Source: Rhizophagus irregularis (lineage: Eukaryota > Glomeromycota > Glomeromycetes > Glomerales > Glomeraceae). Taken from it: 64,000 bases of DNA. Where the stretch lies: positions 2,294,001 through 2,358,000 of the forward strand of contig NC_089429.1 in assembly GCF_026210795.1 (NCBI RefSeq). The letters are read 5' to 3'. The position numbers and the translations under genes were made by a program. Of this stretch, positions 3,047 to 60,838 are shown in pieces (within the stretch, counting starts at the first letter, position 1; each line of letters starts with the position of its first letter). Below the pieces are notes generated by a model that was not told where the DNA came from, did not search any database, and was given only the letters and a program-made list of their open reading frames with translations.

Positions 3047-4192
3047 CATAAATTAGTTGGGATTATTATTATCTTTTTATTTGAATGTAGTTTATTTTTT
3101 TATGTATAATTTTTGTAATTTTAATCATACATCATCTATTTAGTAAGGTTCGTTATGTAATAGGAAATGGTACTACAACGTTACTATATGAGGTAACGGT
3201 TTTGGTATGGAGGGAGACAAAGGTTTTGTCAAACTCAAGGTGTGCTTTATAGATTTTGTATTTTCTTTATCATATAAATAATAAAGTGTGTCATTTACCA
3301 AAAAAAAAAATAAAATAAAATAAAATTTGTGAAAATATAAATAACTCCATAAGTATTAATTGTATTTTCATGAAAATTGAGATTTGAACCTGTTGAAATT
3401 TTCACTTAAAAAGGAAGTGATTCGCTTTGAATAAAGTGTTCAAACTATGTTTTAAAATATATGCAAACTATAGTCAGAGATAAACCGATTTTGACTTACC
3501 AAATCCACGTATAATTAATTTTACTACTATATACTGATTTTATTATAAATTTCGCGATATAGCTATTAAGCTATACCGATGTTAAGTTATATTGTATTAT
3601 TCGCGATAAGCCGATACCGATTTTTTTTTCTATATACCAATCATCGTTATAAAAAAGTTTTCACCAAAGAGAGTAAGATAACAGATGTAAGTTAAATATC
3701 TCGCCCCTTTTATTAACTCTTTTATTATCGTTATGTCTACAAATAAGCGTGTTACTTTATCTGTAGCTCAAGTTTTATAAATATAGTATAATAAATAAAG
3801 CGTCTATTATAAAAAAAAATTTATATAAAAAATTTACATATTAAGTTCGGATATTTATTTTACCGAACTCTCGGTATAACGACCTAAATCAGGATTCTGA
3901 CTGTATAATATTTGTTTATACTATTTAAAAATAATTATAATTGTGTATCTACGTGTGAAGAAAATCAAACAGATATAATAATGATATATTTTGTGTAATA
4001 TAACCGATCAGGGGTGAAAGAAGCTTATGAAGCCTATTCGCCACAATAGTCTACTTCAGAATTGATTGGGGATAGTCGATCAATCAATTCTTCCCAAATA
4101 AGTAGATCAAGTTAAAAATATGTACGTTTATTTATGCTATTTTTAAAATAGTTTAAAAGTATAAATTATTTAATTATTCATATTAAAATATG
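3047..4192. other. Intergenic, AT-rich
   Basis: No gene seen. An A-rich tail of AAAAT units at 3300-3326 could mark the 3' end of an old retroposed sequence, but no matching target duplication was found. An imperfect inverted repeat lies near 4048-4110. Confidence 0.4.
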
Positions 4193-19676: not shown

Positions 19677-21981
19677 TTACTTACTATTTTCTTGAGTTTC
19701 ATTCGTTTCATTGTTTAATTCCTCAAAATTACGCTTTCTTGAAAATTTTACGGGTACAGTTAAGCTTTGAGTAACGGAATTTGTATTCTGTGTGGATGAT
19801 CTGAAAACGTACGATATATTATTAACAAGTTACATATATTTATATATTAATAATTAATTACCTTTGAATATTATTTATATCAAATTCATATTCTCGTGTG
19901 ATATATTCTAAAAATTAATAAAAGCCATCTAAGTTGATATAAAACTTAAAGAAGTAAATTCAATTATCATTATCTGATCGTCTAACTTAATGCTTCAGAT
20001 TTTTTCATTAATGGCTAATTATAACTTCATACCTTGTTTAACATTATATGAGATCATTGAAGAAGAATTTATAGTTGAAGCTTTTGAAATTAAAGAACTT
20101 AATGCTCTACTTGTATAAATTGCTTTTGGATGAGATTTTTCACTAAATTCGGGTCCAAGTTGCTTTAATTGTATTAATTCCAATCTTTTTTTTTCAGCTT
20201 GCTCAAGTATTTCGTTTCCATACATTTTGATAAAAGAATCCCTGATTTCATATCTAGTTGGTCTTTTTAAAGGGTCAGAATCCCAACATTTTTTCATTAA
20301 ATTTGCAAAACATTCAGGGGTATCATTTGTAATTTCAGGGCGTTTTCCATCTATAATTTCATAAATAAGTTCAAGATTGTGTTCAATATTTGCAAAAGGT
20401 TTGCAACCTGTTGTAACTTCCCACATAATCATACCAAAACTATATATATCAGATTCTTTTGAAAATGCAGCACCTTTAAATATTTCTGGTGCGATGTAAG
20501 GTATTACTCCATATATTTCATTATTTGATAATGTATTGTTTGCAGGTTGTGATAATCCTAAGTCTCCAACTTTCCAATCCGTATTTGACAATAACATATT
20601 TCCACTATGAATATCTCGATGTATAAAATTATTTTTATGAACATTTTCGAGTCTAAAATAAAGCATTTAATTGTTAATAAACCAACTATAAATTAGAAAA
20701 TAGATTAATTCACTAAAAATATACAATAAATACCCAAATAATATTCCTTGTAAAATAAACAATTTGCCGTCCCATCTAAGATTTATAAAGTTCTTTTGCA
20801 AATAATCATGCAAATTTCCACCTTCTGCATAGGGCAATATTAACATATATTCTTTTGTTATAGGATCTTGTGTAATGCCATAACAGTCAATTACCCAATA
20901 ATTTTTACATTGATAAAGTGATCTTAGCTAAAGAATTAATAAGTCAATTAATACAATAAGACATTGCAAGTATATAAAATTTAGTAAATATTACCTCATT
21001 TAGAAAATGTTTACTGATATTTTGTGAATCACGCAATTTTTTTACAGCAACATCAGTTCCCTCCCAAGTCGCTTTATAAATAATACTGAATCCTCCTTCC
21101 GCTATTTTCTTTAAATTCGTAATTTGAGAATATGGAATCCACTCTATTCCTATGATTGGAAGATTATTACGAATAAACGAATGCACCTCAAATGGACTAC
21201 GAATTGTCTTTTTCATATAATTAGCAATAGAATGGAGATTCTTATTGTTAATTCTTGTAGAGGCAAGAAATTCCTCTATAATGTAATTTTCACTTCTGAT
21301 ATCTGTAATATCAATTCTAATGAATGAAATTCTTTTGCATTTCTTACATTGAGATTGATCTGCAATTCCAAGAATTATATTTGTTGTTAAACAATACCTA
21401 CATCCAGTATAAATTATATGGCAATGTAAACACCATTTTTGACAATAAGATTTTGACTCTTGTTGTATATATTTTAGTTCTTGATAACAAACTACACATT
21501 GATTATGACTATCCCACCATGGTAAATATAGAATCGGAATAGACTTTTTAGTCAAAGTTGATTCTACCCATCCAGCAGAAGAAAACTGGTAATCACAATA
21601 ATCAGGAATTAAATTATAACAATAAACTAACGATTTATCTTTTGTGACTACTTGTGTAAAATATAAAATCTCAGAACAATATTCGCACCATTCTTGAATG
21701 TTTGTTGAATAAAAATTATTTCTGGTTGCTTTATGCTTAATGCACTGAGAATTATTTGTACTTATACGTGCGTCCAAGTGTGTATTATTGTCTGTTATAT
21801 ATTGAATATACCAAAATAAACAATTTTTGCAATATTTTTGTCTAAGCTTGAGTGTCTCAGAGTATTCAATTCCACAATAATTACATTTTTCCTCATTATT
21901 TTTAAAAGGAATAAATAAAACAGGTACAGGACTAGATTTTAATTTTGATGTAGGATCAAATGGATTGTTATCTGTATTCAT
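19677..21981 (-). CDS. TKL-type protein kinase with Cys-rich N-terminus (copy B)
   Basis: Five-exon model on the minus strand: 21981-20995, 20927-20734, 20652-20033, 19907-19862 and 19800-19677. All junctions are GT-AG, phases join without a stop, and the product is 656 aa. Residues 30-220 carry seven CxxC pairs (33/36, 51/54, 99/102, 162/165, 184/187, 194/197, 212/215), suggesting zinc-binding ribbons. The kinase domain spans about 285-540: glycine loop AEGGFS (294-299), VAVK with Lys314, HRD (405-407), DLG instead of DFG (424-426, metal-binding Asp kept) and APE (448-450). It should be an active Ser/Thr or Tyr kinase. The Ser-rich and basic tail ends at 19677. The final GTAAGT overlapping the stop could alternatively be another donor. 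The sister gene at 27630-29972 is a recent duplicate. Substrate unknown. Confidence 0.85.
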
Positions 21982-22438
21982 AATGTTGTGTTGTATTTCA
22001 AGAAAATAGTTTATAAAAATTAAATGTAAAAATCATAAAGCAATATTTATGAAGTTACATAACAAAGTGAAATTCTACAGAAGTTTTCTTTAAATATTCT
22101 ATATAGAAATAGTTGTACAGTATATTGAAAATCCGCCATCATGCATAAATTTCAAGCAAGATTTGCTTGCTCAATTTAGAAAGTTTCGCGGCTTAAATTC
22201 TCCGTCAATGAATATTATTTTGTAAACCTGTACTACCAATCTGAAATTATGTGACGATCAATTTGACCTAGAATTTTCTTTTTTTACGATGAAATAATCA
22301 AATAACGATAAAAACTATAAACTTTCTTAATAAACTATAACATGTCGTTTCATCAATTCTTTTTATTATTTAGAATTTGGGCTTTGGAAAGTAATCTTGC
22401 TAATATTTTATACCTTGTGTAATTATGTAATTATAAGC

Positions 22439-27629: not shown

Positions 27630-29972
27630 TTACTTACTATTTTTTTGAGTTTCATTCGTTTCATTCTTTAATTCTTCAAAATTACGCTTTCTTGAAAAAT
27701 TTACAAGTCTTTGAGTAGCGAAATTTGTATTTTGTGTGGATGATATTATATTATTATTTATTTATATTATTAACAATTTACATACATTTAAATATTAATT
27801 AATTACCTTTGAATATTATCTATATCAAATTCATATTCTTGTGTAATATATTCTAAAAATTAATAAAAGAAATCTAAGTTAAATATGAATATTAAGAAAT
27901 AAATTAAATTGCTTTTATCTGATCATATCAAGTTTTTTACATTAATTGTTAATTATCAATGTACTGTAAAATAGTAAAATACCTTGTTTCACATTTAATG
28001 AGATCATCGAACTCATAGTTGAAGCTTTAGAAATTAAAGAACTTAATGCTCTACTTGTGTAAATTGCTTTCGGATGAGATTTTTCACTAAATTCTGGTCC
28101 AAGTTGCTTTAATTTTATTAATTCCAATCTTTTTTTTTCAGCTTGTTCAAATACCTCGCCGCCTCCATGCATTTTGCTAAAAGAATTCTCGATTTCATAA
28201 CTAGTTGGTCTTTTTAAAGGGTCAGAATCCCAGCATTTTTTCATTAAATTAGCAAAACATTCAGGGGTATCATTTGTAATTTCAGGGCGTTTTCCATCAA
28301 TAATTTCACAAATAAGTTCAACATTGTGTTCAATATTGGCAAAAGGTTTACAACCTGTTGTAAGTTCCCACATGATCATACCATAACTATATACATCAGA
28401 TTCTTTTGAAAATGCAGCACCTTTAAATATTTCTGGTGCGATATAAGGTACCACTCCATATATTTCATTATTTGATGATGAATTATTTGCAGGTTGTGAT
28501 AATCCTAAGTCTCCAACTCTCCAATAGCATCGAGATAATAACATATTTCCACTATGGATATCTCGATGTATAAAATTATTATTATGAATATTTCGGAGTC
28601 TAAAATAAAACATTTAATTGTTAATAAACCAATTGTAAATATAGAAAATAGATTAATATACTAAAATATACAATAAATACCCCAATAATATTCCTGTTAA
28701 AATAAACAATTTGTCGTCCCATCTAAGATTTATAAAGTTCTTTTGCAAATAATCATGCAAATTTCCACCTTCTGCATAACTCAACATTAACATATATTCT
28801 TTTGTTATAGGATCTTGTGTAATGCCATAACATTTAATAATCCAAATATTGTTATCATCACATTGATAAAGTGATCTTAACTAAAGAATAAATAAATAAA
28901 TTAATACAATAATTATTAAAAAACACATTGCAAATATATAAAATGTAAATATTACCTCATTTAGAAAATGTTTACTAATATTTTGTGAATCACGCAATTT
29001 TTTTACAGCAACATCAGTTCCTTTCCAAGTCGCTTTATAAATAATACTGAATCCACCTTCTGCTATTTTCTTTAAATTCGTAATTTGAGAATATGGAATC
29101 CACTCTATTCTATTGACTGAACGAAGTTTATCACGAATAAACGAATACATTTCAATTGGGCTGCGAATTGTATCGTTGTCCATATAATTAGCAATCAAAT
29201 GATAATTATCATTTTTAATTCTTGTAGAATCAAGAAATTCATCTATAATGAAATTTCCACTGCAAATGTTTGTAATACCAATATTAATGAATGAAGTTCT
29301 TTTGCATTTCTTACATTGAGATTGATCTGCAATTCCAAGAATTATATTTGTTGTTAAACAATACCTACATCCAGTATAAATTATATGGCAATGTAAACAC
29401 CATTTTTGACAATAAGATTTTGACTCTTGTTGTATATATTTTAGTTCTTGATAACAAACTACACATTGATTATGACTATCCCACCATGGTAAATATAGAA
29501 TCGGAATGGACTTTTTAGTCAAAGTTGATTTTACCCATCCAGAAGAAACCTGATAACCTGATGACTGCTTCTTGTAATTACAAACTCCGCAGTGTTCATT
29601 TATACTACCGAAAATGTGCAAACAAGATGGATATCCTATGAATACTTGTGTAAAACATAAAATCTCAGAACAACATTCGCACCATTCTTGAATGTTTTTT
29701 GTATAAAAATTATTTCTAGTTGCTTTATGTTTAATACACTGAGAATTATTTGTACTTATAAGTACGCCCAAGTATGTATTGTTGCCTGTTATATATTGAA
29801 TATACCAAAATAAACAATTTTTGCAATATTTTTGTTTAATTTGTGTCTTGGAGTATTCAATTCCACAATAATTACATTTGTCCTCATCGTTATTAAAAGG
29901 AATAAATAAAACAGGTACAGGACTAGATTTTAATTTTGGAGTAGGATCAAATAAATTATTATCTATGCTCAT
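27630..29972 (-). CDS. TKL-type protein kinase with Cys-rich N-terminus (copy C)
   Basis: Model on the minus strand: 29972-28956, 28880-28681, 28599-27983, 27852-27807 and 27708-27630. Product about 652 aa. The ATG at 29972 is the equivalent of the sister start; an upstream in-frame extension begins at TTG and is not needed. The architecture matches the sister gene: CxxC-rich half, then kinase with glycine loop, Lys324, HRD (417-419), DLG (436-438) and an intact APE. Exon 1 carries an extra Cys-containing segment near 29560-29640. The sister's last acceptor (CAG before ATCATCC) is missing here because the intron end has diverged. An AAG 36 nt further on (27709-27711) would restore splicing in frame and skip 12 codons. 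If that site is not used, the tail is truncated at a stop just after exon 4. Likely active kinase, substrate unknown. Confidence 0.8.
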
Positions 29973-31439
29973 AATGTTGTATTTCAAGAAAATAGATTAT
30001 AAAAGTTAAATGTAAAATTATAAAGCAATATTTATATTTTATGAAGATACAATAACAAAGTGAAATTCTACAGAACTTTTCTTTAAAGAATCAAGGATAT
30101 TCTATATAGAAATAATATAATTATGCATATTGAAAATCCGCCATCATGCATAAATTTCAAGCAAGATTTGTTGCTCAATTTAGAAAATTTCGCGGCTTAA
30201 TTTCCGTCAATGAATATTATTTTGTAAATCTGTACTACCAATCTGAAATTATGTGACGATGAAATAATCAAATAACGATAAAAATAAACTTTCTTAATAA
30301 ACTAAAACGTGTTGTTTCATCAATTCTTTTTATTATTTATAATATGGGCTTTTGGAAAGTAACATTGCTAATATTTTATAACTTATGTAATATAATATAT
30401 TATCGTAAATTACACGCACGTTCAAAAATAAAAAACAATAATGTTATTAAATGTCTAATGTTCATTAATTTAATGAATAAAAAAAAGAACACGGATTATT
30501 GAAAAGTGGTGTTAAGTGAATATTTCTATTAGCTAATAAATAGAAATGCAAACTTACTACAACGTTAAGATCTTTTTTTGAAAAAAATGATTTTTTACTT
30601 GTAGACGCACTCAAACCTTACACGTTTTTTATAAATATTGATTGTTGACAGTGGTTATTTTGGTATAAAATCCCTTATAAATGAAATAAATAAGTTTAAT
30701 TTTTTGTATTTTGTATATAAGCTAAATATTCAATAAATGACCGAAAATGAACCATTATATAATATTCGTTCTATATCGTAATAGATATTTAAATTTTACA
30801 AATAAATCTAATTTTAAATTTATTAGACTAAACACAAATATTAAATATAAAAGACTAATTTAATACATTCCATGATTAAAATGATTTTCATTTCATAATT
30901 TATTTCTCAATACGATGTAAAAAAAAGGTTTAAACTCGATTAACCAATCAATAATAGAATTTAAGATATATTTTTTTAATAAGAAAATTTTCTTAAGATC
31001 ATTTGAGTTAATTACACGATAAAAACTTAAATATATTATTAACTCAGAAGACTACTTCAGTTTTTTCTTTGGATACTTTCCTTAAAATAAATGCGTCCCA
31101 AATCTTTGATAGAATATCATTAAATAATTACACTATTCTTTTTACGCATCCAATTAATATATTCACTTGTACAATAAGTTCAAAACTTAAAAATAACTTT
31201 TTAAAATATTGTATGGTCGTCAATAAAAGAAAAATATTTTTTAAACTCTTTTAATAAAATAAGTACTTTATAACCTTTAAAATATTACGTATAATTACTA
31301 ATTATTCCAGAGCGGAGCGAATATTGTCTATAAAGGGTATATTTTTTCTAATCAATGACTTAAAGAAATATATCAATCAATGTTGAAGTTTGACATATAA
31401 ACATTAGTTATTATAAACAATTTGTACGCTTACAATATC
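29973..31439. repeat. Upstream flank of kinase copy C
   Basis: 29987-30410 and 30412-31400 align with 21981-22430 and 24627-25560 without the insertions found there. No gene was seen. A short open frame at 31069-31254 is not conserved. Confidence 0.6.
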
Positions 31440-52440: not shown

Positions 52441-53297
52441 AGGGGGGGATACTGAAAACTTATAATAAAATAGACGCGAGTAATTTAAGTAATTTAGTAA
52501 AAAGATCAAAAAAATCACGAGTAAATCATATGATTTTCGAGTAAATTCGAGTCACGTGGTTGGCGCAGCGTACTGCGTATATATCGCAAGTTCGCAACAC
52601 TGAATTCAAATATAATGAATCTAGAATTTTATGGGTTTGCATTGTATCCTTAGTTAACAAATTTATATCATGGACATTCGAATCTCAGTATATTTGAATA
52701 TCATGACAGATTCGAATCTCAAAATTCTATATTCGAATATCTAAATTTACATGTTTTATAACGAACGTTCGAATATCCTAATTTCAAACGGAAGCATACG
52801 CAGCGATGTGCACTGGAAGTTACCATTTGGACTTCGAATCTCAATAATATTTCTAATTCTGACAAAAGTCATTGGGAAACTTCCAATGTATATCACTTCC
52901 TATACGTACTGTACGTATAGTCAAGGTATTAACACGAAGAAGCTAAGAAAGCGCGTTCCTTGTTTACTTTTCTTAGTTCTCAAATTCTGCTAAAGTTTTT
53001 AGTTTAACCAAATAAAATAAATAATTTATTCCAATAAAATATCTAAACGTATGTTTCTAAACAATAAGTAATTGCAGAATAACAAATTTATCGGCTTTAT
53101 TGAGATTAGTAAGATTTTCGCAGTTCAAATTCAAAAAAGCGAATTGAATGTTCCTCTTTTTGTGCTTATTTCTTATAATTAAACGAAGATTCACTTCTCG
53201 ACATATTTTGTCTCGATTATTAAACTAATTAATTTTAGAGATTTTACGATACGATGCGAACAATGATGATGTTATTAAACTAATTTTCGGGGGTGAC
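52441..53297. other. Intergenic
   Basis: Contains repeated ATTCGAATCTCA/GAATATC motifs (52675-52780) and a TACGTACTGTACGTA palindrome near 52901. An 80-codon frame (52751-52993) has no support. Confidence 0.4.
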
Positions 53298-53479
53298 GAA
53301 AACAAGTACAGTATGGAATCCTATGTATGTATGTATGGTGACCTATGTATGGATGTATGGTGGCCTATGTATAGTATATTACTATTGTGATAACTATACC
53401 GTATGAAAATTAACACCATACATACCATACATTGACCACCATACATACATACATAGGATTCCATACTGTACTTGTTTTC
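53298..53479. mobile_element. MITE with about 45-bp inverted repeats, 182 bp
   Basis: The left arm starts GAAAACAAGTACAGTATGGA, continues through CCTATGTATGTATG to GGTG, and is mirrored without error on the right (53433-53479). The middle holds GGTGGCC and GTATGG units. The length of the perfect inverted repeat suggests recent activity. The target duplication could not be separated from the arms; a TA next to CAGTATGG is possible. Confidence 0.7.
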
Positions 53480-53687
53480 TATATAATCCTAATTTTCGTA
53501 AGTAGATTCGAAAATATTTACGTATTACTATGTATGGTAAATGATGAACTTATTATATAGATTAGATTATCTTTTTTAGTAGGTGTTACCACATTGTGAT
53601 AAATGCTACAAAGTTAATTGAGAATTTAGCATATAAACAAAATTTTCTTTTTTTTTCTCATAATTTTTTATCTAATTTTTTACAATT

Positions 53688-56600
53688 ATGAACGAAACTG
53701 CTGCACCTAAAAAGAAAACATTGAAAGTAGTTGAAGATGGCGCGGAACAAGTAGAAGCCGCGACAAATGTAGCAGTACCATTTGCAAATTTTTTACCATT
53801 TATAGAAGAGGTGTCCAGGTTACTTAAAGAAATCGTAGATATATATCAAACAGCAGTAATTAATAAAGGAATATGTGGTGTAATGTTAGATAGAGTAGCC
53901 ATAGCTGAATCAGCTACAAAAAAATTCTTAAAAGTCCGAGAGAATGAAGAATTTTTTTCAGCAGAAAATTATGTTAATTTACAAAAATTAGTTACCGTAG
54001 TTGGTAAAATACGTAAATTTCTAGCAGAAATTTCTCAAGTTAGGGGATTAAAAAAACATACGCAAGCTAAAAATATTGAAAAGACTGCAATGGATTTAAA
54101 TAAAGAATTTGATTCTACCATTCAACTTTTGGAATTTGCTTTCATGGTTGATTTCAGTTTACGTGATGATATTGATAATAAAAAGATCAGAGCTGATATC
54201 GAAGATTTAATTGAGGTAATGTGTTTGATATAAATAATTGACATTTTAATTTTTAATACGCATGAGATAAATATAGTAAATTTAATAAATATTCATAATA
54301 GAATCTTCAAGCAATCGGAGGTGGTGGTGGTAGATTTGATCCGAATAAAAATGTCTCCACAATAATGGATAAATCCGAAACTAACATATTTCAAAGTGAA
54401 TTACTTCCATATAATGATTTTGAAGAAGTTGAAGTTGGAGAAAATGTTGGTAAAAAAATAAAAAAATATAAAAGAATAAAAAATGGGGTTAATGATTTCG
54501 TTGTATTAAAATTAGTAGCAGATGAAAGTATTAAGGAAGAGGCTAAGAATAATATTAAAAATCAAGTTACAATTTTAAGTAAATTAGAAGAATGTGATAA
54601 TATTATTCAATTTTTTGGTTTAACTACTATTGATGGTAATAAATGGTTTTTAGTAACTGAATGGGCTGAATATGGTAATTTACGCGAATTTTATAATACT
54701 TTTGGACCACTTGATGTTAAGGCGAAAGTACTATTTGCTATTGATATTTCTAGAGGTTTAAGTTTCTTGAATGCTGTTGAGGTAATTATCTTTGATGAGG
54801 GTTTCTTGTTTTAAAATTATATTTATATACGTTTATATATTTAACCATTTCTTGATTTCCTATAAATAGATTGTTCATTGTGATATAAGAGCCGAGAATA
54901 TTTTAATTACAGATTATCAAACGGCCAAGATCGCAAATTTTAGTTCAAGTAAAGCCGTAACTGATGTTACAAAAAACCACAAAACAACACTAGAACGTGT
55001 TCGATATTGTGCTCCAGAAAATTCAGAAAAATTAGGAACACAAACTAAATATAATACAAAGAGTGAAATTTATAGTTTTGGTATCTTACTTTGGGAAATC
55101 GCCGAAGAAAAAGTTCCTTATGCGAATTATAACGATATTATGGCTATTACTGAACTTGTTGGTGAAAAAAAATACCGTGAACCATTTTCTGATGCTTCTC
55201 CTTTACCAAAAGAATATCAAGATATTGCAAAAAAAGGTGTATTCATCAAAATTTTCACTTATCTTTTTATTTATAATATTAACTTTTGTAAATATCTATC
55301 TATATTTTAGCTGTTGATCATGATCCAAATTATAGGCCTTCATTTACAAAGATATTTACCGTATTACAAGATCTATATATGAAAACTTCTTCTAATTCTA
55401 TTGGTTCTTCTAGTCCTATTGGTTCTGTAAGACGACAAAGAATCTTGTTGAAAGATTTCATTAATTCTCTTTCTTTAAAGAGTATTACTTACTTACTATA
55501 TATTTATTTAAAAATCAGGAATGGATCAAAAAGAAAATGGAGGAAGAAGATATTAATTACTTTGAATATAATGAATTTAGCAAACCTATTCCAATTGGTA
55601 AAGGAGGATTTGGCTTTGTGCATAAAGCGGAAACTAATGATAAAAAACAAGTTGCATTGAAAGGTCTCATAGATTCAGTAATCGATGAAAATGTTATTAA
55701 AAACTTCGTAAAAGAGGTAAGAATCGTATTTAAATCCATCATAATGTATAAGTAGCTTGTAATAAAAACTATTCTTTTAGTTAAAACTTCTTCGTATGGT
55801 CAGCTATCATGACAATATTAATAGATTTCTTGGAATAACAAAAGGTAGTCTAATTTATTGAATTCATTCTTATAAATTTAATTAATTATATTTTAAATTA
55901 AATGGGCAGATAATATTGGTTATGTTATGGTATTGGAATACGCTAATGAAGGAAATTTAAGAGAATATTTAGAAAAAAAATTTGATTCATTACAATGGGA
56001 GAATAAGATTCAAATGGCATTAGATATTACACGCGGATTATTATGTTTACACTCGAGGAACATAATTCATAGAGATTTGGTAAATCAATAATTTATAATT
56101 TATTTATTTTTATTACATTTTTCTTAAATAATAATTTTTAGTAACGTTTACAATTATTCTTTAGCACTCAAAAAATATATTAGTGAATGACGGTAAATTA
56201 TTAATTGCAGACTTTGGATTATCTAAACAATTAACGGAAGTTACATCTAATTCAACAAGTAACAGGATGGGAATTATTGAATATGTTGAACCACAATGTA
56301 TAAGGAATGTAAATTATGTAAAAGATAAAAGGTCTGATGTTTATAGCTTAGGTGTTTTATTATGGGAGATTACAAGTGGTCGACCTCCTTTTTGTCATAT
56401 GGTAGAACGAGATATGTTAGGTTATCACATTAGTCGTGAGAATCTTAGAGAAGAACCAATTGAAGGTACGCCTTTAGAGTATCAACAACTTTATCAAAAA
56501 TGTTGGGATGGAGATCCGGAGAAAAGACCCGATATTAATCAAATATATAAAGAAATTTTAAGTCAATCCAATGTCAATGATATTAGCGAACAATCCGAAG

Positions 56601-56689
56601 ATTCATTAGTAAATAATGATAGTCTTGATAATTTAAACATACAATCAGCCCAATCAGATCTATGCATAAAAACCGAATTGGTATTATAA
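53688..56689 (+). CDS. MLKL-like helical bundle, pseudokinase and kinase protein
   Basis: Eight exons: 53688-54215, 54302-54781, 54870-55236, 55311-55426, 55519-55716, 55781-55844, 55910-56079 and 56165-56689. All are GT-AG with matching phases, giving 815 aa. Residues 25-176 are predicted all-helical (FLPFIEEVSRLLKEIVDIYQ, CGVMLDRV), resembling the N-terminal four-helix bundle of MLKL-type proteins. Domain 2 (about 215-480) is kinase-like: it has Lys246, HCD at 339-341 and APE at 384-386, but no glycine loop and ANF (358-360) in place of DFG, so it is probably catalytically dead. A Ser-rich linker (about 480-497) leads to domain 3 (about 515-765): GKGGFG (524-529), Lys545, HRDL (638-641) and DFG (657-659), so likely active. 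A Ser/Asp-rich tail follows. The 4HB call is by pattern and could be another Cbl-N-like bundle. Confidence 0.8.
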
Positions 56690-57900
56690 ATAGGTTATAT
56701 AAATGAGATGAGATTTAATCAAAAGATATTATCTTCGCTTTTATCAAAAGATATATATCTTTTGTATTTTTCCATACAGAGTCCCAATATTTATTAACAT
56801 CAATCAAATGATTCAATCAGCTATATTGTTATGGTTTCCATAAACTTGCTGGATTCAAAGTTAGCTACATAATAATTAAAGACCATTTGATGCTTGTTTA
56901 TCTTTCCTGAACGTGAGATGTAATCTTCAGTTGTTAACTCACACTTCAATTCTGCTATTTGCCTTCTATGTTAAGATTTGGTGTTTCTTTTTGGCCATCA
57001 CTTGAATATCTACTAAGGAATACTAATGAATCATGTACTGTACAGTGCAATAAGTATAGCACCTAGAAATTTCCTATTATAATATGTTTTCAAACATCCT
57101 CTTTAAAAATCTTATTAAATTTTTATTAATCAGAGTATTGAAAGCAACAGCATACATCATAAGACTCATAATAAAAATTTTATTAAATGATGCATATATA
57201 AAAAGCACGAATTAACGTGCCTACTACTACTACATTTGTTAAGCATAGACACGAAACACATCATATGATTTGTACACTATTTGTACTGAATGTACATTTA
57301 TTTCCAGAATATCCTTGGAACATTCAGGTATTAAGTAAATTAGGACATGCCAAAAAACTTGATATAGTACGTACGTTTGTTAAAATCTAAATTTTTTACA
57401 CTAGTATGTACGATTATTTAAAATATTTCTGTACGTATTTGTTTTTTTAAACATGAAATAGAAACAATAGAACCATTTAATATTTAAATTATTTAGCTCC
57501 ACAATAATTACAGGAATATTCAGTATTTACGAAGCAAAGTTTGCATTACAAATTACAAAATACCTGGATATATTAAAATAAAATACCTATTTTGCAATTC
57601 CAGTTCAATACTTAATGTAAATTTGAATTTCCAAATTTTCAACTTGAATTACTTGAATTTCATTTTTAATATATTACAAATATCATGACGTAATCACTTT
57701 TCTTTAGTATCTATCAAAACTTTTTTCTTTTACAAGGATTTTTGGTCTCAGATTTTTTATTATATGTATCTTTAATAAAAGAAATGTATTTTATATTAAA
57801 ATAAATATATTACATAATAATAAACTTTTACCTTTATGATTTGATGCAATTTGCTGTCTTTTACTTCACTTTTATCACATCTTGTATGTAGAGTATTTTT
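56690..57900. other. Intergenic
   Basis: AT-rich. 57040-57064 (TACAGTGCAATAAGTATAGC) looks like one end of a Tc1-type element, but no partner end was found. No gene. Confidence 0.4.
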
Positions 57901-59517: not shown

Positions 59518-60838
59518 CAGTTCACGACATAAATATCCGGAATTTTATCACAATATGTAAAAATATAATAAATTTTATTTTTTTTATTTCAAATTTATAC
59601 CATTAATAGCTTAAGATGTGCAGATAAACATACTTTAAAAGTTAGTAATTTATCGTATAACCATTATTTTCTATGACCATGTTAATCCGATCTGACATGC
59701 TATCTGCTAAACTAAAGAAGAGATTTTTATCAATATTATCCCATTCTTGCTGAATTACGCCTTGAAAATCATTAGCACCAAGTGATTTTTTTTTCATAAC
59801 CCAATTATTAACCCTTCTTTCTACATTTCCTTTAAGAATCGCCCATAAATTTTCGATGGGGTTCAAGTCAGGTGAGTTTGCAGGCCAATCAATAACCGGA
59901 ACATTATTAATCACAAAAAATTGATGAGTAAGCTTTGCGGTATGCATTGGCGCATTGTCCTGCTGAAAATTCCATCCATAACCAGCATGATAAGCATTAG
60001 GAAGTAGTTGAGATTGAAGGATTTCACGGTATTTAGCAGAATTCATGTTTTCTGTAAATAATGCAACTCCAATTGGCCCTTGGCGGCAAAATGCACCCCA
60101 AACATGAACCTTATATGGATGTTTTACCATAGGATGTACTGGATGTGGGTTTCCAGCCTTGTAACGTACAATTTGAGTATTACGAAACGTCTGAAATGTA
60201 CTTTCATCTGAAAAAATTGTGTGAGTCCAGTCATCTTGGATGTGATTTAAGGCCCATTGAAGACGAGCTTCAACATGACTTTCTTTAAGAAGAGGAACAG
60301 ACCATGGTCTACAAACAATATAATTAAGTTTATTTTTAAGAGTACGTTATACAGTTCGGGTTGATACATTAAGATCTGGATACAAATTATTCAGCTTTGT
60401 TGTCATTAAAGCTGAAGTTGTTGCATTATCATTTTTAAGAAGACGGCCAAGATATCGACGTTTTTTGGTGTCAAAACAAGAGGACGACCAGGGAACGGGT
60501 AAGTGTTCAACACTTCCTGTTTTTTTTAGACGATTGATAATGTCATATACTGTAGACTTTGGAAAACCAGTCATTTTAATTATTTCAGAGGGTTTTCGTA
60601 TATTATTATCCCATAGCTCCTTAACAGTCAACCTTTGCATTTCAAATACCGAAGTGGGTGCCATGATTTTATTTTGCTGCTAATAAACAATCAGGTGAGA
60701 ATTTTTCACGCTATATTTATGTTTAAAAAGGGCTGATCAACTTCCATTTTAATTATTATTTTGGTTGCACAAGACTTGGTGTGACAGCACTCCTTTATGC
60801 ATAAAAATAAAAATTCCGAATATTTATGTCGTAAACTG
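59518..60838 (-). mobile_element. Tc1/mariner element, 1,321 bp, nearly intact
   Basis: Terminal inverted repeats of 29 bp (CAGTTCACGACATAAATAT and its mirror, two mismatches) are flanked by TA on both sides (59516-59517, 60839-60840). One transposase frame fills the element. Intact ends and a single lesion in the coding sequence suggest recent insertion. Confidence 0.9.
59642..60664 (-). pseudogene. Tc1-family DD34E transposase with one premature stop
   Basis: A single frame from ATG 60664 to the stop at 59642, interrupted once by TAA at 60347-60349 (codon 106). Residues 1-105 hold the paired helix-turn-helix DNA-binding region (KELWDNNIRKPSEI, FPKSTVYDIINRL). Beyond the stop come the first catalytic Asp in IFSDEST, the second Asp in QQDNAP and the Glu in NPIENLW. 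Exactly 34 residues lie between the second Asp and the Glu, the DD34E signature of Tc1. A one-base change at the stop is the only visible defect. Translation restart at 60130 would yield only the C-terminal half. Confidence 0.9.

Follow-up and report, generated by a model that had tools for sequence, protein, structure and literature searches.

A predicted MLKL-like bundle-pseudokinase-kinase gene of apparently chimeric origin in Rhizophagus irregularis

Within a 64,000-nucleotide stretch of the Rhizophagus irregularis genome (assembly GCF_026210795.1, contig NC_089429.1, positions 2,294,001 to 2,358,000; hereafter the window), a predicted gene appears to join in one chain an MLKL-like helical bundle (NTD), an MLKL-like pseudokinase (PK) and a second, TK/TKL-type kinase domain (K). 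The gene looks chimeric, with a 5' part of the NTD-PK-Sel1 type, a 3' part of the NTD-NTD-K type and a switch near 55,380-55,460. The best overall explanation may be an MLKL-like bundle-pseudokinase in which a kinase has replaced a Sel1-repeat tail and which would act as a switch, a reading to which we assign a probability of roughly 0.45. Animals keep the MLKL executioner and the kinase that activates it on separate proteins.

The predicted gene and its three domains

The gene model, built from the window sequence, runs on the plus strand from an ATG at 53688 to a stop codon ending at 56689. It has eight exons and seven introns, all GT-AG, 64-92 nt long and consistent in phase, which leave an open frame of 815 aa. 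Exon 1 (53688-54215) encodes the NTD (aa 1-176), and exon 2 (54302-54781), also aligned with the paralog L001, encodes the bundle-to-pseudokinase segment and the pseudokinase N-lobe (aa 177-336). The pseudokinase C-lobe, with its HCD and ANF motifs and activation segment (aa 358-386), lies in exon 3 (54870-55236), and the pseudokinase end and the linker KTSSNSIGSSSPIGS (aa 483-497) lie in exon 4 (55311-55426). Intron 4 (55427-55518; 92 nt, phase 0, GT-AG) stands between PK and K. The kinase follows in exon 5 (55519-55716; N-lobe with GKGGFG and VALK), exon 6 (55781-55844), exon 7 (55910-56079; HRDL at its end) and exon 8 (56165-56689; C-lobe with DFG, C-terminal tail and stop), with Pfam and motifs in support of exons 5 and 8 and motifs in support of exon 7.

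An earlier sequence-only reading had treated 53688-56689 as one gene and had named the join of exons 4 and 5 as the link between the two kinase domains, and both claims agree with the model. The two exons are joined in frame across intron 4; were the intron retained, the frame would stop after 77 further residues. The acceptor of the first K exon, AG followed by GAATGGAT, is common to the window gene and the loci L003, L005 and L016, and it is internal in those three, which argues against a split into two genes. Judging from the gene model and these relatives, we consider it likely that NTD, PK and K form one protein.

That residues 1-176 form an MLKL-type bundle had also been proposed, with structure prediction and comparison with the MLKL and HeLo families as the check. 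As modelled by AlphaFold2 from the single sequence (mean pLDDT 68.9, pTM 0.62), exon 1 indeed forms a helical bundle with an extra C-terminal helix (helices at residues 36-55, 60-84, 92-116, 124-158 and 164-175). The top VIA-align match of this model is the MLKL executioner domain 6zz1 (Z 12.5, 119 residues, rmsd 2.4 A), a score to be read with the caution that for helical bundles Z below about 13 can reflect a common arrangement. MLKL occupies ranks 1, 2, 4, 7 and 14; the plant NRG1 CC-R, NRC2 and Rx CC domains are also among the matches, and unrelated rows lie near MLKL (a gamma-tubulin complex chain at Z 12.0, IncA at 11.5 and a designed protein at 11.0). Foldseek returned zero matches at E<=0.001 and gave the MLKL chains of 6zz1 a probability of 0.93-0.94 (E 0.75-1.1) and 2msv 0.89 (E 0.54). 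In sequence searches of the PDB, MLKL was absent at E<=1 with phmmer of the NTD alone and at E<=10 with the NTD profile.

The family gives a clearer picture. From 29 NTD copies collected in the genome, 23 were aligned (six, from L003, L005 and L007, were left out), and 21 of the 23 match the Pfam family MLKL_N (PF22215) at E<=1, the best at 1.9e-8. Six NTDs tested singly all match it at E<=0.01 (0.0028 to 1.8e-6), one of them passing the curated cut-off. The NTD of L012 scores 28 bits, above the cut-off of 27; that of L001, the closest paralog, matches at 5.9e-5; and for that of L016 families other than MLKL_N score better. The window NTD alone reaches MLKL_N at E 0.077, under the Pfam cut-off. 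No HeLo-type family matched exon 1 at E<=0.1, and none is among the best 25 of the 50 Pfam families matched by the 23 NTDs, two of which match RPW8 (best 0.033). Together, the Pfam matches of the paralogs and the structural match support an MLKL_N-type bundle at the level of the family. The MLKL half of the proposed comparison is thus borne out in the family, with the window copy itself at E 0.077 and Z 12.5, and no HeLo-type match was seen among the families listed.

Both kinase-like domains match PF07714, PK (residues 177-497) at 8e-41 and K (residues 498-815) at 2e-53. By eye, PK is without a glycine-rich loop, keeps the beta-3 lysine (Lys246), has Gln264 in place of the alpha-C glutamate, retains the catalytic-loop aspartate (Asp341) within HCD, and carries Asn359 at the position of the DFG aspartate (ANF). 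In K, also by eye, GKGGFG, VALK with Lys545, Glu563, HRD (HRDLHSKN) and DFG are present, and VEP stands where APE is usual. The motifs agree with the first description, including the missing glycine loop and ANF for DFG in PK; the description of K as having all catalytic motifs holds except for APE.

Asparagine occupies the DFG aspartate position in 32 of 32 PK rows (29 by pattern, 3 by eye). Since this position, the beta-3 lysine, the catalytic-loop aspartate and asparagine, and the alpha-C glutamine are also invariant in ten aligned PKs, PK is, judged by its motifs, a conserved pseudokinase family and not a single decayed kinase. When the window PK was compared with PDB sequences, the first 11 matches were all MLKL (best 7e-26), followed by 7t6f (6.2e-23), a tyrosine kinase that we take to be JAK1, and by ABL1 (4.3e-22). 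With a ten-row PK profile, MLKL has the best single-domain score (111.9 bits versus 79.5 for the better 7t6f domain), and by summed score MLKL comes after 7t6f and an EGFR chain with two domains. For the PK of the paralog L014 alone, EGFR and 7t6f chains stand above MLKL, ITK is close and MLKL is narrowly first among single-domain kinases. These comparisons support a PK nearer to the MLKL pseudokinase than to other solved kinases, less clearly so for L014. The matches of K in the PDB include 7t6f, EGFR, FGFRs, CTR1 and Roco4, with no MLKL among the best 60 of 731; DFG is present in 10 of 13 K rows, and K is predicted to be a TK/TKL-type kinase.

Relatives in the genome and the apparent fusion

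The assembly searched comprises 146,748,485 bases in 32 contigs, and exon 1 found 131 matches in it, some genes having several. We examined 40 regions around these matches, the first 20 taken from the better matches and the others for spread, so that the counts below do not describe a random sample; locus architectures are predicted genes, read from neighbouring same-strand tblastn matches. NTD, PK and Sel1 repeats lie on one strand at 29 of the 40 loci, two of which (L021 and L029) have two NTD-PK units each. At four loci (L003, L005, L013 and L016) two or three NTDs are followed by K, at two (L004 and L017) NTD, PK and K occur together, and one (L019) has NTD, PK and PK with no Sel1 match. 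Three loci have K before the NTD (L033, L034 and L037), with DLG for DFG in L033 and L034. One locus (L007) has three NTDs and no kinase match at E<=1e-5, and L005 combines three NTDs with three kinase units behind them, of which the middle one has no DFG. The genome may hold more PK-K genes, since the genome-wide searches with exons of the K and PK types scored the 150 best among thousands of candidates.

A survey of early-diverging fungi describes an expansion of Sel1-repeat MLKL-family homologs, found among the fungi studied only in Glomeromycotina (PMC8778642), and a kinase and Sel1 expansion is described for R. irregularis in PMC8647823. Our results suggest that the MLKL-type bundle and MLKL-type pseudokinase form a large, shuffled family here, which bears on the age of their pairing.

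The evidence for a chimera comes from comparison with two loci. Outside the window, the best genome-wide match of the NTD and of the PK exon is L001 on C30, and that of the K exon is L013 at C1:3695437 (for PK and K, among the best 150 candidates scored). L001, an NTD-PK-Sel1 locus with no K match, is 82.5% identical to window positions 53529-55385, and L013, an NTD-NTD-K locus, is 92.3% identical to 55378-56816, with exon 8 reaching 95% against C1:3695437-3695955. In bins, identity to L001 is about 90% and falls to background past about 55460, and identity to L013 exceeds 90% from about 55400, so that the stretch at 55380-55460 resembles both L013 and the PK-Sel1 linker of L001. In a C-lobe tree of 45 rows, PK is split from K (support 100/94), the window PK forms a pair with L001 (99/93) and the window K forms one with L013 (100/87); rows shorter than 95 residues, L012 among them, were dropped, and all relatives come from one genome. 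Synonymous divergence (dS) is 0.15-0.18 between the 5' part and L001 and 0.076 between K and L013. Both parental gene types thus seem to be still present in the genome.

Intron 4 itself may consist of one piece from each parent, since its start resembles the L001 linker and its 3' end, acceptor included, is like that of NTD-K genes. In plain letter shuffles, a lenient control for AT-rich DNA, 0 of 1000 reached the score of window positions 55386-55470 (linker plus first part of intron 4) against the coding PK-Sel1 linker of L001, and 34 of 1000 reached that of the intron section by itself. Likeness to L003, L005 and L016 starts at 55470-55489, inside the intron, and takes in the acceptor. Misassembly is an unlikely source of the chimera: both parental copies differ from the window sequence (82% and 92% identity), and the two similarities overlap at the switch. 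In L013, a stretch at 3610-3740, within the presumed intron before K, resembles the coding linker of the window gene, which hints that the fusion was once present in the L013 lineage and that its NTD-PK part was lost afterwards; the score of this stretch against the L001 linker was reached by 83 of 1000 shuffles.

The window gene is apparently not the only such fusion. L004 has an in-frame GT-AG model in which PK is joined through two short exons to the first K exon, with a Sel1-like match downstream of K on the same strand, and L017 has a stop in the K N-lobe. In the C-lobe tree, the K domains of L004 and L017 form a clade separate from that of the window K (support 100/98). The PK linker of L002, a Sel1-tailed locus with no K match, is nearly as in L004, sharing YGMPPASPRSSYHGKN with it. 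It seems unlikely that all NTD-PK-K genes go back to one origin, because the K clades are separate and supported and a near relative with a Sel1 tail is present for each gene (L001 and L002). On the simplest reading, the PK-K fusion apparently arose twice, K having been gained independently each time behind an MLKL-like PK. The PKs of L002, L004 and L017 sit in an unresolved fork of the tree, and the program warned that the two K groups join by long branches; K may also have been exchanged later.

Other features of the window were also noted. A pair of closely similar kinase genes about 8 kb apart, each with an N-terminal part rich in cysteine, was recognized by eye on the minus strand (20019-22032 and 27942-29996), as was a 234-aa open frame with the look of a Tc1/mariner-type transposase (59642-60346, minus strand). 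A MITE-like palindrome, about 199 bp long, lies at 53290-53488 and ends 200 nt upstream of the ATG. It has two copies elsewhere (C29 and C22) at 100% identity; on six contigs, partial matches occur in pairs about 5-6 kb apart and point to a longer parent element.

A possible switch and competing explanations

We suspect that, in an MLKL-like unit of a four-helix bundle and a pseudokinase latch, a TK/TKL-type kinase may have taken the place of the Sel1 repeats; this kinase is related to a second family, whose bundles attach directly to a kinase. In this scenario, the bundle would act on membranes and the pseudokinase would restrain it, until the tethered K, in cis or within an oligomer, phosphorylated the Ser/Thr-rich activation segment of PK (aa 358-386) and freed the bundle. 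The step that RIPK3 performs on MLKL would then take place within the same chain. By analogy with MLKL, this mechanism is possible, yet we regard it as somewhat doubtful. The broader proposal of a self-contained, one-chain necroptosis-like switch, made at least twice independently by adding a kinase behind the pseudokinase of an MLKL-like gene, in a genome where bundles, pseudokinases and kinases are shuffled much as NLR parts are in other lineages, is rather unlikely in our estimation. If the single chain is expressed, activation by a tethered kinase could be tested in a single construct, and the same genome offers natural controls: L001, with a similar bundle and pseudokinase and a Sel1 tail, and L016, with bundles and a related kinase and no pseudokinase.

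Alternatively, the kinase could be the output, with the NTD and pseudokinase placing and restraining K in a signalling kinase without a killing role, much as the JH2 pseudokinase of JAK restrains JH1. The catalytic motifs of K are intact, its nearest relatives are genes with bundles directly on the kinase, and the NTD that follows the kinase in L033, L034 and L037 would be ill-suited to an N-terminal executioner. MLKL's brace sits between bundle and pseudokinase, and there the window protein is missing 11 residues present in L001 (DLVVQLSVLNK), a loss that could uncouple an MLKL-like latch. However, the single-domain score of PK is nearer to MLKL than to 7t6f, and bundle and PK share 83-84% of their residues with L001, the nearest relative; we hold a purely signalling kinase to be a possible but fairly improbable reading.

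Another explanation is that family members recombined into a newborn chimera without selected function, its frame open by chance and the gene decaying. Estimates of dN/dS (upper limits in brackets) are 0.475 (0.92) for the NTD, 0.613 (1.07) for PK and 0.474 (1.04) for K. On the window branch, nonsynonymous and synonymous changes number 25:14 (outgroup L015) or 28:10 (L002) in exons 1-3 and 6:4 (outgroup L016) or 5:5 (L003) in exons 5, 7 and 8, compared with 15:4 or 8:7 for L001 and 17:8 or 14:6 for L013, depending on the outgroup; a further 22, 35, 2 and 6 changes are ambiguous. Because the upper limits lie near 1 and the branch counts are as they are, constraint on the window gene is either weak or beyond proof with these counts, and relaxed constraint may apply. 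The 11-residue loss and the HCD of the window PK, where L001 reads HRD, would fit decay as well. Among its relatives, L013, the nearest K copy, is without an AG before the counterpart of exon 6, and its exon 5 counterpart begins with a TAG in the frame of K; the stop in L017 of the second group and the MITE-like element close to the ATG point the same way. Against this, the window gene has kept 815 stop-free codons and seven GT-AG introns despite a dS of 0.08-0.18 to its nearest relatives, and the same domain order occurs in a second gene group, so that a functionless chimera seems unlikely.

Least probable, and in our view quite improbable, is a division into two transcripts, one for an NTD-PK protein that stops after exon 4 and one for a kinase of its own that begins at an in-frame ATG seen by eye at 55537 in exon 5: read-through of intron 4 would give NTD-PK a 77-residue tail, but that intron is a 92-nt, phase 0, GT-AG intron, the exon 5 acceptor is the one used internally by the NTD-K relatives L003, L005 and L016, and the roughly 110 nt between the domains leave scant room for a promoter.

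Comparison with known systems

The bundle-pseudokinase-kinase protein and its chimeric origin are, we suggest, new here, and the parts and analogues are already in print. No report of such a protein was found among the matches listed in the openly licensed literature on fungal MLKL, pseudokinases, tandem kinases, Sel1 repeats, necroptosis and AM fungi; a review notes that some fungal HELL domains occur in kinase or pseudokinase proteins (PMC12881547).

JAKs combine FERM and SH2 domains with a tyrosine-kinase catalytic loop. The resemblance to JAK proposed in the sequence-only reading holds for the domain order, with the pseudokinase directly before the kinase, and goes no further: neither FERM nor SH2 is among the nine Pfam families matched by the window protein at E<=0.1, and it has an MLKL-like bundle and HRDLHSKN instead. 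The chimeric origin, the Sel1-tailed family, the second fusion and the 11-residue loss had no place in that reading. Plant tandem kinase-pseudokinases such as WTK1 (Yr15) likewise hold a kinase and a pseudokinase in one chain and, according to PMC6170490, are polyphyletic, having arisen repeatedly and partly by gene fusion. WTK1 differs in having the kinase first and the pseudokinase second, both from plant kinase families, and the passages describing it mention no MLKL bundle (PMC6170490).

Cereal Pm13, an MLKL_NTD-kinase protein, shares with the window protein an MLKL-type bundle and a kinase with key catalytic residues, and a brace is named between its two domains in PMC10951266. As described there, it differs in having no MLKL-like pseudokinase in between, and its nearer counterpart in this genome would be the NTD-K group (L003 and L016). 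The Sel1-repeat MLKL homologs of Glomeromycotina, as described in PMC8778642, share the NTD-PK unit, and the window gene has K in place of the Sel1 repeats.

The closest parallel is MLKL itself. Both proteins would begin with a four-helix bundle followed by a pseudokinase, and among solved structures the window PK is closest to MLKL in sequence. The window PK differs in keeping the catalytic-loop aspartate, and the segment before it is shorter than in L001. A separate RIPK3-like activator is not known here. MLKL ends with its pseudokinase and is activated by a separate protein, whereas the window model continues, in frame, into a C-terminal kinase with intact motifs.
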